Below, piece after piece: positions 3,902 to 25,609 of a stretch of DNA of 64,000 nucleotides. Source of the stretch: an uncultured Pelagibacteraceae bacterium (GTDB taxonomy: Bacteria > Pseudomonadota > Alphaproteobacteria > Pelagibacterales > Pelagibacteraceae); assembly GCA_902595795.1 (NCBI GenBank), contig CACJRK010000002.1, forward strand, positions 33,608 through 97,607. Reading direction: 5' to 3'. Positions within the stretch are counted from its first letter, which is position 1, and the number at the start of each line of letters is the position of its first letter. The position numbers and the translations under genes are program-made. The notes under the pieces were generated by a model. That model saw only the letters and a list, made by a program, of their open reading frames with translations, was not told where the DNA came from and made no database searches.

Positions 3902-4677
3902 TGCTCATTTCATCTTGGAATGTAAACTCAGTGCGAGCAAGAATTGAAAATATCAAAAGCTATTTATTAAAATATAAACCTGATATTTTAATGATGCAGG
4001 AAATCAAAACTGAAGATGTTAATTTTCCATATGATGATTTTTCATCAATGGACTATGAAAGTCATGTGTTTGGTCAAAAAAGTTATAATGGTGTAGCAAT
4101 AATTTCTAAAATTAAATTTAAAAATGTCAAAACAGATTTGATTAAGGATAAGTTAAAACAATCTAGAATAATTTCAGCTGAATTTGAGCATAAGAAAAAA
4201 AATATACAATTAATAAATATTTACACGCCTAATGGTAATCCTGTAGATACAGAAAAATATGATTATAAGAAAGATTGGCTTAATCAATTAATAAAGCAAT
4301 TAAAAAATTTATCTAAAAAAAATTCTAACATTATTCTAGCTGGTGATTTTAACATCATTCCATCAGCAGAAGATGTTTATAATGTTAAAAGTTTTGAAGA
4401 CGATGCTTTATACAGACTTGAAATAAGAAAAAAATTTAGAGAAATGATTAATCTTGGGTTTAACGATGTCTACAGACATTTTCATGAAGATAAAGAAGGA
4501 TATACATTCTGGGATTATATGAGAGGTGCTTGGCAAAAAAATAATGGAATGCGTATTGATCATTTTTTAGTTTCAAACTCAATAATTAATCAAATTAAAG
4601 ATATTAATATTAATAAAGATCCACGTGGAAGAGAAAAGCCCTCTGATCACACACCTATTGAGATTAATTTAGCTTAA
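3901..4677 (+). CDS. xth: Exodeoxyribonuclease III (AP endonuclease)
   Basis: Base-excision repair nuclease of the endonuclease/exonuclease/phosphatase fold that cuts at abasic sites and trims 3' ends. The start at 3901 (MLISSWNVNSVRARI) is preferred over the track start at 3871: it gives the standard N-terminus and overlaps the erpA stop as TAATG, whereas the extra ten residues are erpA codons read in another frame. Catalytic segments visible are QEIKTED, GDFNIIPSAEDVYN, MRIDHFLVS and the C-terminal SDHTPIEI. Length is 258. The 3' end overlaps the convergent Ldh gene by 9 bp. Confidence 0.95.
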   Translation: MLISSWNVNSVRARIENIKSYLLKYKPDILMMQEIKTEDVNFPYDDFSSMDYESHVFGQKSYNGVAIISKIKFKNVKTDLIKDKLKQSRIISAEFEHKKKNIQLINIYTPNGNPVDTEKYDYKKDWLNQLIKQLKNLSKKNSNIILAGDFNIIPSAEDVYNVKSFEDDALYRLEIRKKFREMINLGFNDVYRHFHEDKEGYTFWDYMRGAWQKNNGMRIDHFLVSNSIINQIKDININKDPRGREKPSDHTPIEINLA

Positions 4678-5667
4678 AGATTTAATTTTATTTACTAATT
4701 CCTGGTTAATATTTCTTGGGCCAGTATCCATTCTATTCTTATGACGTCTTTCTCCAGGTAATCTTACTTCACCCATTGATTTCATTTTTTCAAAAAATTC
4801 CTCAGCATGTTTTTGCCAATTAGTACCTGATGTTTTATCTGGATTGATAGCTAGTATGAATTCACCACCACTTGGGGGGCCACCATCATTATTATCTTTG
4901 GCAGCAGTTTCAAAACTAAAATTATCTCCAACTAATGCACCTGCCATTAATTCTACCATCATTGCAATTGCAGATCCTTTGTAACCACCAAAGGGTAATA
5001 AAACTCCACCATCTGCAATTTCCCCAGGATCAGTTGTTTCTTTACCATCTTTAGTTAATCCTGTTCCAAGTGGAACTTTATGCCCTTCTCTTTTAGCAAC
5101 TTGAACTTCTCCCATTGCCATTGAGGCTGTTGCCATATCATAAACAACTGGTGTTTTACCTGGACGTGGCCAAGCAAAAGAAATTGGGTTCGTTCCAAAT
5201 AATGGCTTTATAGCACCGGCAGGTGCAACAGCAGGTTTGTAAGATGTACAAGCAAATGCAACTAAACCATCCTCTGCTAATTTCTCTGTTTCGGGCCACA
5301 TAGCAGCCATATGATGTGAATTATTTATTGCTAATACAGCAACACCATTTTCTTTTGCGGCTTTTGCTAATTCGGGTAATCCTTTATTTAATACAACAGG
5401 TGCTAAACAATTATTTCCTTCAACTTTGATAACAGATGGAGATATTTTTTTTACCTCAGGTTTTCCTTTTCCATTAATCTTTCCACTTTTTAATCCAGTG
5501 ACATATGCTGGTAATCTAAATAGACCATGTGATACCGAGCCATCTCGTTCAGCATTTCTGATCAAGTCTGATAGTATTGATGCTGTTTCATCATCACAAC
5601 CGTTAGCTAAAAGAGTTTTTTTAGCTAGTTCAAATATTTCGTCTAAAGTTATAGATACAGTGCTCAT
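4669..5667 (-). CDS. Ldh family (malate/lactate-type) NAD(P)H-dependent oxidoreductase
   Basis: 332-residue member of the Ldh_2 family (COG2055-type), unrelated in fold to classical Rossmann dehydrogenases. Family segments are the N-terminal R-D-x-SHGLFRLPAYV, the catalytic histidine pair in NNSHHMAAMWP near residue 118, FGTNPISFAWP, and the nucleotide-site segment LPFGGYKGSAIAMMVELM. Possible substrates in this family include malate, lactate, ureidoglycolate and the cyclic imines piperideine- or pyrroline-2-carboxylate. The SHHMAAMWP region reminds me of the last group, but that is not proof. The start overlaps the zur stop (TAATG), making it the fourth gene of znuC-znuB-zur-ldh and suggesting zinc-linked expression. 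No RBS separates it from zur. Confidence 0.85.
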   Translation of the reverse strand: MSTVSITLDEIFELAKKTLLANGCDDETASILSDLIRNAERDGSVSHGLFRLPAYVTGLKSGKINGKGKPEVKKISPSVIKVEGNNCLAPVVLNKGLPELAKAAKENGVAVLAINNSHHMAAMWPETEKLAEDGLVAFACTSYKPAVAPAGAIKPLFGTNPISFAWPRPGKTPVVYDMATASMAMGEVQVAKREGHKVPLGTGLTKDGKETTDPGEIADGGVLLPFGGYKGSAIAMMVELMAGALVGDNFSFETAAKDNNDGGPPSGGEFILAINPDKTSGTNWQKHAEEFFEKMKSMGEVRLPGERRHKNRMDTGPRNINQELVNKIKSLS

Positions 5668-20122: not shown

Positions 20123-21163
20123 TTATCTTGATGGTGGAACGTATAAAATACCACCTTTAGTCCATAATTCGTTTGGACCTCTGTCTGGTAATATACCAGT
20201 GTCAGCTATATTTCTCTTATAGCTTTCACCATAGTTTCCAACTTGTTTGATAATTCTTAAGTTCCACTCATTGTCTAGACCGAATGCAGCACCTAATTCA
20301 CCTTCAGCACCAACTAGTCTTTTAACAGCTGGGTTATCTGAAGTTTTCATAGAGTCAGCATTAGCAGAAGTTATTCCTAACTCCTCAGCTTCAATCATAG
20401 TATTTAAAGACCATCTTACGATATCTTCCCATACTGAGTCACCTTGTCTAACAACTGGGCCTAATGGCTCTTTTGAAATAGTTTCAGGTAACACGATGTG
20501 CTCATCTGGATTAGACATTTTTGTTCTTTGTGCAGCTAAACCTGATTTATCTGTAGTGTAAGTATCACATCTACCAGCATCATAAGCAGCTACGACTTCA
20601 TCAGCTTTTTCGAAAGCAACTGGCTCATAAGAAATTCCTTTAGAGTTAAAGAAGTCTCTCATATTTAACTCAGTTGTTGTACCAATGTTCGTACAAGCTG
20701 AGATACCATCTTTGAATTGGCTTGTTGAAGTAATACCAGAACTTTTTCTAACCATGAAACCTTGACCATCATAGAAGTTTACTCCTACGAAAGTAAGTCC
20801 AATATCAGCATCTCTAGAAAGAGTCCAAGTTGTGTTTCTTGATAAGATATCAATCTCACCAGATGTTAAAGCTGTAAATCTTTCTTTAGCACTTAATGGT
20901 GTAAACTTAACTTTGTTTGCATCACCTAGTACTGCAGCAGCTACCGCTCTACATACATCAACGTCAACACCAGTCCAATTTCCTGCAGCATCAGCGTTAG
21001 AAAATCCTGGAAGACCTTGAGATACTCCACATCTTACAAAACCCTTCTTTTGAGTGTTTTTAAGTGTTTTAGATTTTTTAGCAGCCATAGTTTCTGTTGT
21101 AAAAGTAAACAACACCGCAACCATAGCAACTAATGAAGTTAATTGTTTTAAGTATTTAAACAT
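20123..21163 (-). CDS. aapJ: General L-amino acid ABC transporter substrate-binding protein AapJ
   Basis: Periplasmic binding protein of 346 residues with a signal peptide (LTSLVAMVAVLFTFTTETMAA). Mature segments typical of AapJ/YhdW are KGFVRCGVSQGLPGFSN, GVDVDVCRAVAAAVLGD and LTSGEIDILSRNTTWTLSRD. First gene of aapJQMP. A good RBS (AAAAGGAAGAATAATG) and a structured leader precede it, and a terminator follows it. Binding proteins of this kind are usually made in large excess over the permeases, which matches that layout. In low-nutrient marine bacteria they are major proteins. Confidence 0.96.
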   Translation of the reverse strand: MFKYLKQLTSLVAMVAVLFTFTTETMAAKKSKTLKNTQKKGFVRCGVSQGLPGFSNADAAGNWTGVDVDVCRAVAAAVLGDANKVKFTPLSAKERFTALTSGEIDILSRNTTWTLSRDADIGLTFVGVNFYDGQGFMVRKSSGITSTSQFKDGISACTNIGTTTELNMRDFFNSKGISYEPVAFEKADEVVAAYDAGRCDTYTTDKSGLAAQRTKMSNPDEHIVLPETISKEPLGPVVRQGDSVWEDIVRWSLNTMIEAEELGITSANADSMKTSDNPAVKRLVGAEGELGAAFGLDNEWNLRIIKQVGNYGESYKRNIADTGILPDRGPNELWTKGGILYVPPSR

Positions 21164-21186: not shown

Positions 21187-21221
21187 ATTTGTTAACAAAT
21201 AATTCAAAACGTATTTTGAAT
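21187..21221 (-). promoter_or_regulatory. Two inverted repeats in the aapJ leader
   Basis: ATTTGTTAACAAAT (21187-21200) is a perfect 14-bp palindrome. ATTCAAAA-CGTA-TTTTGAAT (21202-21221) is an 8-bp hairpin with a 4-nt loop. The hairpin would lie at the very 5' end of the message from the candidate promoter. Possible roles are mRNA stabilisation or operator sites. Confidence 0.5.
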
Positions 21222-21339: not shown

Positions 21340-21416
21340 TGGCGCGCCCTGGAGGATTCGAACCTCCGACCCTCGGTTTAGAAAACCGATGCTCTATCCA
21401 GCTGAGCTAAGGGCGC
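21340..21416 (-). tRNA. tRNA-Arg (TCT)
   Basis: On the minus strand, acceptor GCGCCCT pairs with AGGGCGC, the D arm is GCTCAGCTGGATAGAGC, the anticodon loop TTTCTAA gives TCT, and the T arm is GGAGG-TTCGAAT-CCTCC. The discriminator is G and CCA is encoded. It lies 34 bp after trkH, so it may be co-transcribed with the ntrYX-trk operon or have its own promoter inside the trkH end. Confidence 0.96.
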
Positions 21417-24253: not shown

Positions 24254-25609
24254 TTAATTAAATTCTTTAATTCCTAAACCTTTTAATTTACGATGTAAGG
24301 CACTTCTTTCCATTCCAACAAAATTTGCAGTTTTTGAAATATTTCCATTAAATTTTTTTAATTGAATAGTTAAATACTCTTTTTCAAATTTTTCTCTAGC
24401 TTCTTTTAATGGCACAGATAGGCTGTTTTCAGCAATTTGATCATCAAAATTATCATTTTTAAGAGATTCTTTTATTATATTTGAAATCTTTTCTCTACTA
24501 TCAGGTTGTAATATAGCGATCCTTTCAATTAAATTTCTTAATTCTCTTACATTTCCTTTCCAGTTATGATTTAAAATATAACTATTGTTTTCATCAATAT
24601 CTAACTCATTAATATTATAATTTTGTGATATTTTTTTTGAAAAATATTTTATCAAAAGTGGTATATCCGAAATTCTTTGACTTAGTGATTCAATATTAAT
24701 CTCAAAAACGTTAATACGATGAAATAAATCTTCTCTAAAGTTTCCAATTTGAATTTCTTTTTTCAAGTCTTTGCTAGATGAGCAAATTAGCCTAACATCA
24801 ACTGTAATATCATTATTACCATTAACTCTTTTAAATTTTTGATCTATCAAAACCCTTAAAATTTTTGATTGAATATCTAATGGTATTTCAGAAATTTGAT
24901 CTATAAGAAGAGTTCCTTTATTTGCTTTTTCAAGTGCGCCATAAGAAATTGAACCATTTTCTTTTTCTTCACCAAATAATTCTAGCTCATATTTATTAAA
25001 GTCTAATAAGGCTCCATTTAATATTATAAATGGTCTCTTATTTCTCAAAGAGTTTTTATGTATTTTTCTTGCAACTAGCTCTTTACCTGATCCTGAAGGA
25101 CCATTTATAAGAACTCTACTTTCTGTTAATGATATTTTTTTAATTTGATCAATTATATTTGTAGTGTTTTTACTATCACCTATTAAATCATATGATGAAA
25201 ATAATTTACTTTCATACTCTTTATTTTGTTTTTTTAAATCATAATTTTCGACAGCTCGACTTATAAAATTTAATAATCTGTTTTGATCAAATGGCTTTTC
25301 GATAAATTCAAAAGCTCCATATTTTAGAGATTTTACTGCCATCTCAATATTTGCATGTCCTGAAATTATTATTACTGGAAGATCTTTATCTTTTGTTTTT
25401 ATATGAGATAAAAGTTCAATACCATCATTATCTCCTTTGTCTAATTTCACATCTAATATAGCAACATCAGGTAATTTTTTATCAATTTCTGTTAAAGCCT
25501 GATTATAGTTAGCAGCAACTCTTGTTTTATATCCTGCGTCAATAATTAATTCATTAATTATATTTCTAATATCGGCATTATCATCAACAATTAATATCTC
25601 AGCGCTCAT
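24254..25609 (-). CDS. ntrX: NtrX-type response regulator (degenerate AAA+ activator)
   Basis: 451 residues in three parts. The receiver domain (about 3-118) has the acidic pair D9/D10 and phosphoacceptor D53. The AAA+ domain (about 140-375) has Walker A GPSGSGKELVARKIH. The C-terminal Fis-type HTH ends SALHRKLKGLGI. Two features are unusual: the GAFTGA loop needed to contact sigma-54 is absent (the segment reads EKENGSISYGALEKA), and the Walker B glutamate is replaced (GTLLIDQISEIP, Q238). It is therefore probably a sigma-54-independent regulator with impaired ATP hydrolysis. It is coupled to ntrY by TAATG. Confidence 0.92.
   Translation of the reverse strand: MSAEILIVDDNADIRNIINELIIDAGYKTRVAANYNQALTEIDKKLPDVAILDVKLDKGDNDGIELLSHIKTKDKDLPVIIISGHANIEMAVKSLKYGAFEFIEKPFDQNRLLNFISRAVENYDLKKQNKEYESKLFSSYDLIGDSKNTTNIIDQIKKISLTESRVLINGPSGSGKELVARKIHKNSLRNKRPFIILNGALLDFNKYELELFGEEKENGSISYGALEKANKGTLLIDQISEIPLDIQSKILRVLIDQKFKRVNGNNDITVDVRLICSSSKDLKKEIQIGNFREDLFHRINVFEINIESLSQRISDIPLLIKYFSKKISQNYNINELDIDENNSYILNHNWKGNVRELRNLIERIAILQPDSREKISNIIKESLKNDNFDDQIAENSLSVPLKEAREKFEKEYLTIQLKKFNGNISKTANFVGMERSALHRKLKGLGIKEFN

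Follow-up and report, generated by a model that had tools for sequence, protein, structure and literature searches.

NtrX of a Pelagibacter clade carries glutamine at the Walker B catalytic glutamate position within a conserved ATP pocket

The NtrX response regulator encoded in a 64,000-nucleotide stretch of DNA from an uncultured Pelagibacteraceae bacterium (the window) has glutamine, Q238, at the position of the Walker B catalytic glutamate of its AAA+ domain, and this residue is shared across the protein's own Pelagibacter clade, in which the rest of the ATP pocket is conserved. We infer that Q238 NtrX binds DNA as a regulator of the sigma-70 type under the control of phosphorylation, and that ATP bound to its AAA+ domain serves as an oligomer clamp and is barely hydrolysed; we put the probability of this reading at roughly 0.6.

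The gene adjoins ntrY, which it overlaps by one base, and is followed downstream by trkA and then trkH. Pfam matches over cut-off (Response_reg, Sigma54_activat, AAA_lid_14 and HTH_8) give the product the receiver (REC), AAA+ and Fis-type helix-turn-helix (HTH) layout of NtrX response regulators. Its best NCBIfam match is NtrX, at 533.7 bits over residues 3-447, with NtrC at 337.2; the NtrX score lies below the NF051870 equivalog cut-off of 600, which fits the general divergence of SAR11. The phospho-accepting histidine of NtrY lies within MAHEIKNPLTP. The window protein is an ordinary NtrX of an NtrY-NtrX two-component system, with the features listed here, where Q clade denotes the 132 NtrX sequences at 80% identity or more to it:

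24254 to 25609, minus strand: ntrX, a REC - AAA+ - Fis-type HTH response regulator of 451 amino acids
25609 to 27390, minus strand: ntrY, the cognate sensor kinase, with Pfam domains NtrY_N, HAMP, HisKA and HATPase_c
25451 to 25453, minus strand: receiver phospho-acceptor Asp53, in 132 of 132 Q-clade sequences
25079 to 25102, minus strand: Walker A, residues 170-177 (GPSGSGKE), with K176 in 132 of 132 Q-clade sequences
25016 to 25018, minus strand: Asn198, the partner residue in the 'glutamate switch' (PspF N64 by position; the role of N64 is described in PMC4132715), in 132 of 132 Q-clade sequences and 44 of 44 of the glutamate-bearing sister clade
24938 to 24973, minus strand: loop 1 region, residues 213-224, GEEKENGSISYG, without GAFTGA, placed by alignments to solved relatives
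24896 to 24898, minus strand: codon CAA for Gln238, at the Walker B catalytic glutamate by alignment
24716 to 24736, minus strand: putative arginine fingers R292 and R298 (REDLFHR), placed by alignment to NtrC1 and NtrC4, each in 132 of 132 Q-clade sequences
24545 to 24547, minus strand: sensor II Arg355 (GNVRELRN), in 132 of 132 Q-clade sequences
24281 to 24397, minus strand: Fis-type HTH DNA-binding domain, residues 405-443 (HTH_8, E 9.4e-11)

Both by sequence and by fold, the nearest solved structure is NtrX of Brucella abortus (PDB 5m7n with ATP, 5m7p with ADP, and 5m7o), which aligns over its full length with an E-value of 4.5e-115 and is the best fold match, at 41-42% identity. Like the window protein it has the REC-AAA+-Fis architecture and no GAFTGA; unlike it, it keeps the Walker B glutamate. 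An AlphaFold model of the window NtrX, made with 57 homologues, has a mean pLDDT of 87.6, the AAA+ domain being mostly above 90 and nearly all above 85, and its fold matches include Brucella NtrX with ATP and with ADP as well as a Walker B mutant of NtrC1 in its ATP-bound form.

The part of the window protein that includes residue 238 reads ELFGEEKENGSISYGALEKANKGTLLIDQISEIP; GAFTGA is missing from it, and DQ stands in place of DE. Translation of the reading frame and alignment to solved relatives bear out the placement of Q238 at Walker B that had been proposed in an earlier note on this DNA: the residue aligns with the Walker B glutamate of Brucella NtrX (LYLDEVADMP), NtrC4 (LFLDEVGEL), NtrC1 and FleQ, a position equivalent to PspF E108 and NtrC1 E239 (PMC7175178). 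We give almost no credence to a sequencing error, a frameshift or a pseudogene as its source. The reading frame is full-length, all of its domains score over cut-off, its comparative pN/pS is about 0.11, and the same glutamine occurs in more than 100 genomes; because 127 of 132 relatives share it, across many separate single-cell genomes and metagenome-assembled genomes and in both glutamine codons (CAA in 114 and CAG in 13), neither error nor chance accounts for it.

The five remaining members of the Q clade carry histidine (three), asparagine (one) and glutamate (one) at this position; the count of 132 draws on two collections and includes some isolates twice. Across the whole SAR11 set with identical proteins removed (n = 189), the position holds glutamine in 106, glutamate in 65, asparagine in 15 and histidine in three; among the glutamine-bearing proteins is the NtrX of genome G013. 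The sister clade within the same genus (66-80% identity) has glutamate in 44 of 44, including Candidatus Pelagibacter ubique HTCC1062, whose NtrX reads GILLIDEISEIP and is 78% identical to that of the window. HTCC1062 shares the gene order ntrY-ntrX-trkA-trkH with the window and differs from it in the glutamate. Our genome G011 is HTCC1062: the published intergenic region 1189853-1189956 fits the G011 reading-frame boundaries at both ends, and regions 676100-676308 and 1212757-1212865 fit at one end each (PMC2704228). Glutamate is also kept in genera g5 and g6 and in the outgroup family f2, and asparagine is found in all of genera g2, g3, g4 and g8 (14 loci, L123-L136), where at least two base changes are needed to pass from GAA or GAG to AAT or AAC. 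The earlier note had treated the exchange as general to SAR11, and this does not hold, given glutamate in the HTCC1062 clade, g5, g6 and f2 and asparagine in g2, g3, g4 and g8.

An NtrX protein tree built without column 238 unites the sequences with glutamine, histidine or asparagine of the window's clade (SH-aLRT 98) and places them beside the all-glutamate sister (91). Judged from these sequences, the change from glutamate to glutamine goes back to the common ancestor of the Pelagibacter clade to which the window belongs and is fixed in that clade, and the glutamine lineage later gave rise to histidine, asparagine and one return to glutamate. The last of these is a Q-clade member from AG-447-P18 (L109, positions 4001-5353) that has glutamate again, encoded by GAA, either by reversion or by recombination. 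From the tree topology together with the asparagine in g2, g3, g4 and g8, it follows that SAR11 lost the glutamate at least twice, once to glutamine and once to asparagine; as the asparagine sequences form two adjacent branches, a third loss is possible.

The residues around position 238 are strictly conserved. All 132 Q-clade sequences retain K176, E177, N198, R292, R298 and R355, along with D53 and K105 of the receiver, and all 14 sequences of the asparagine clade retain K176, R292, R298 and R355. The AAA+ domain of the Q clade has a pN/pS of 0.116, compared with 0.25 (the glutamate sister) and 0.27 in the glutamate clades, and the HTH domain of the Q clade, at 0.039, has the lowest value of the protein, all of these being comparative figures only since pS is near saturation. 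As the Q-clade value is not above those of the glutamate clades, we see no decay of its AAA+ domain. Together, the conserved pocket and the low pN/pS argue against a dead AAA+ domain and for retained nucleotide binding. The exact residue at 238 is not essential, since glutamate (at L109), histidine and asparagine all occur within the Q clade. A search for sites co-evolving with position 238 gave only six other positions (132, 246, 303, 345, 368 and 407) at which the Q clade has a fixed residue that is rare in every glutamate group, and none of the six is convincingly common to the asparagine clade.

Both hallmarks of a sigma-54 activator, the GAFTGA loop and an rpoN gene, are missing for the window NtrX. 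Its loop 1 is, by alignment, four residues shorter than that of NtrC4 and NtrC1. A GAFTGA-like pattern was found in none of 341 NtrX proteins from SAR11 and other Alphaproteobacteria, the window's included, 117 of which come from rpoN-bearing genomes, and Caulobacter NtrX is also said to lack the motif (PMC10274813). With rpoN-bearing species included among these 341, the absence of GAFTGA is a trait of NtrX that says nothing about the sigma factors of a genome, and it would be a misreading to take it as a mark of sigma-54 loss. A search for the sigma-54 DNA-binding domain (PF04552) detected no rpoN in the window's genome, whose completeness is 84%, and gave no match over cut-off in any of 397 SAR11-order genomes, including 151 with a completeness of 90% or more; the one sub-threshold match in SAR11 is to an 874-residue frame in genome G021. 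As a control, the same search recovered rpoN in 297 of 386 genomes of the class. SAR11 sigma factors are sigma-70 and sigma-32 only (PMC13198564). The earlier interpretation therefore survives in part: the missing GAFTGA in this protein, the absence of sigma-54 from SAR11, a real and clade-fixed exchange of glutamate for glutamine and an intact pocket all stand, and the link drawn from GAFTGA to SAR11 and its loss of sigma-54 falls, as does the SAR11-wide scope.

Outside SAR11, the Walker B glutamate is common in NtrX without defining the family: it is present in 150 of 167 sampled members of the class, and the other 17 carry asparagine (six), histidine (four), aspartate (three), glutamine (two), cysteine (one) or serine (one). 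Loss of the glutamate is seen in 9 of 50 NtrX proteins from rpoN-less genomes versus 8 of 117 from rpoN-bearing ones (Fisher p 0.047, in a partly hand-picked sample and with kinship left uncorrected). That the loss of rpoN drives the change at position 238 can be set aside, with glutamate kept in HTCC1062 and in 41 of the 50 rpoN-less genomes and lost in eight rpoN-bearing ones. Some of the glutamate-less proteins outside SAR11 have an intact pocket; others have a broken Walker A as well, and these look like decay. Four NtrX proteins of small-genome alphaproteobacteria (L225, L230, L231 and L261) have lost Walker A together with Walker B, suggesting that their AAA+ domain may be reduced to a scaffold.

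How a regulator with Q238 might work can be pictured from its relatives. The NtrX family would no longer serve sigma-54, so that hydrolysis for open-complex formation would be dispensable; the exchange of glutamate for glutamine would keep ATP binding, probably make it tighter, and leave hydrolysis very slow; and the bound ATP would have a structural role, clamping one AAA+ subunit to another. Switching would then fall to NtrY-dependent phosphorylation of Asp53, by which the Fis-type HTH domains would be freed, or arranged on the DNA of sigma-70 promoters. It is an inference that ATP is bound tightly and hardly turned over at all, that it stabilises oligomers, and that the regulator works at promoters of the sigma-70 type. 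Direct DNA binding is an established mode of NtrX, as the earlier note's proposal of classical, non-sigma-54 binding would have it: in Sinorhizobium, direct binding of NtrX to CAAN2-5TTG sites requires a D53 that can be phosphorylated, and Brucella NtrX also binds DNA directly (PMC9223101). For an AAA+ protein of this kind without GAFTGA, a precedent is Rhodobacter capsulatus NtrC, an NtrC and not an NtrX, which, as cited in PMC10274813, acts with sigma-70 RNA polymerase and needs ATP binding, not hydrolysis, at its promoters. A precedent that points the other way is Caulobacter NtrC, also without GAFTGA, whose Walker A and Walker B Asp mutants cannot support growth on ammonium (PMC10274813), so that hydrolysis can matter without sigma-54.

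The closest model for the substitution itself is PspF E108Q, which has the same exchange at the same position, with the switch asparagine and arginine fingers present; unlike the window protein it is man-made, in a GAFTGA-bearing activator that targets sigma-54, whereas the change in the window's NtrX arose naturally and has become fixed across a clade. PspF E108Q has less than 1% ATPase activity, binds ATP about 30-fold more tightly, forms hexamers constitutively, whether nucleotide is present or absent, and has its switch pair engaged whichever nucleotide is bound (PMC4132715). By analogy with it, an 'ATP-locked' state of Q238 NtrX is plausible. More tentatively, at somewhat less than even odds, such an NtrX may be a naturally hydrolysis-dead AAA+ factor, a high-affinity ATP clamp that serves as scaffold and not motor, evolved at least twice within SAR11, once with glutamine and once with asparagine.

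Three other accounts of Q238 can be set beside this one. One holds that NtrX in this lineage needs no ATP, so that the AAA+ domain is a folded spacer or dimeriser from which the glutamate drifted away. The repeated losses outside SAR11 to six different residues, some of them with the Walker A lysine gone too, speak for it, as does Vibrio cholerae VspR, which functions without ATP (PMC10274813). We consider it unlikely for SAR11, whose pocket is untouched, with Walker A, the arginine fingers and the sensor II arginine varying little or not at all among 132 sequences, and whose AAA+ domain is strongly constrained by purifying selection; drift from CAA should, moreover, also have yielded lysine, arginine, leucine and proline, none of which is seen. 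Slightly less likely again, and drawn by analogy, is a strict lock, in which NtrX with its bound ATP would be assembled constitutively into a ring or a higher oligomer that is always on and that phosphorylation would do no more than tune. The PspF E108Q hexamers and the tighter ATP binding of that mutant would fit such a lock, and the residues round the switch are conserved in the Q clade; against it, Brucella NtrX is reported to be dimeric (PMC9223101), and the Q clade shows no variation at D53 or K105, which means that selection still acts on the phosphorylation switch.

The substitution might also be functionally mild, with useful hydrolysis retained through another residue or water. Some AAA+ proteins retain weak turnover without the glutamate, and histidine and aspartate occupy the position in other lineages. 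We regard this as quite improbable, given that the Q clade has no compensating acid of its own: the acidic residue at 241 is also present in the glutamate forms, and E303, the one acidic residue that the clade has newly fixed, falls within none of the catalytic motifs. The residual activity of PspF E108Q speaks against it as well. The preferred reading remains a phosphorylation-controlled regulator with ATP as its clamp.

As for where such a regulator might bind, no NtrX operator was seen in the 22-bp gap between ntrY and ispDF, and the CAAN2-5TTG pattern of Brucella and Sinorhizobium is uninformative here because it is too weak for an AT-rich genome. Elsewhere in the window, a perfect palindrome, TTCAAAA-N4-TTTTGAA, lies at 21203-21220, next to a second one, TTTGTTAACAAA, also perfect, at 21188-21199; together they stand 25-57 bases before the gene for an amino-acid ABC transporter binding protein (20123-21163, minus strand). 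The region 21188-21220 is conserved in 63 close relatives, the 4-base spacer being variable, and the exact pattern occurs mostly once per matching genome, often at this same gene. Its spacing differs from that of CAAN2-5TTG, and we rejected the pair as NtrX sites of that type; it is a candidate operator or 5'UTR hairpin. A tRNA-Arg (TCT) gene at 21340-21416 is flanked by the gene for the amino-acid transporter and a trkH-like gene.

NtrX proteins without GAFTGA and sigma-70-type action are already known. A change of the catalytic glutamate in NtrX looks undescribed so far, and we found no account in the open-access literature of NtrX proteins in which the Walker B glutamate has been lost naturally, repeatedly and throughout a clade while the pocket is preserved. 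Q238 is a natural, repeated counterpart of the laboratory mutation that traps AAA+ activators with ATP, and its setting is among very common ocean bacteria, in which NtrY-NtrX is one of the four two-component systems of SAR11. It bears on the question of whether a bEBP-like regulator without GAFTGA needs ATP turnover or binding alone, and because glutamate and glutamine forms occur in relatives as close as 78% identity, the two can be told apart with natural proteins.
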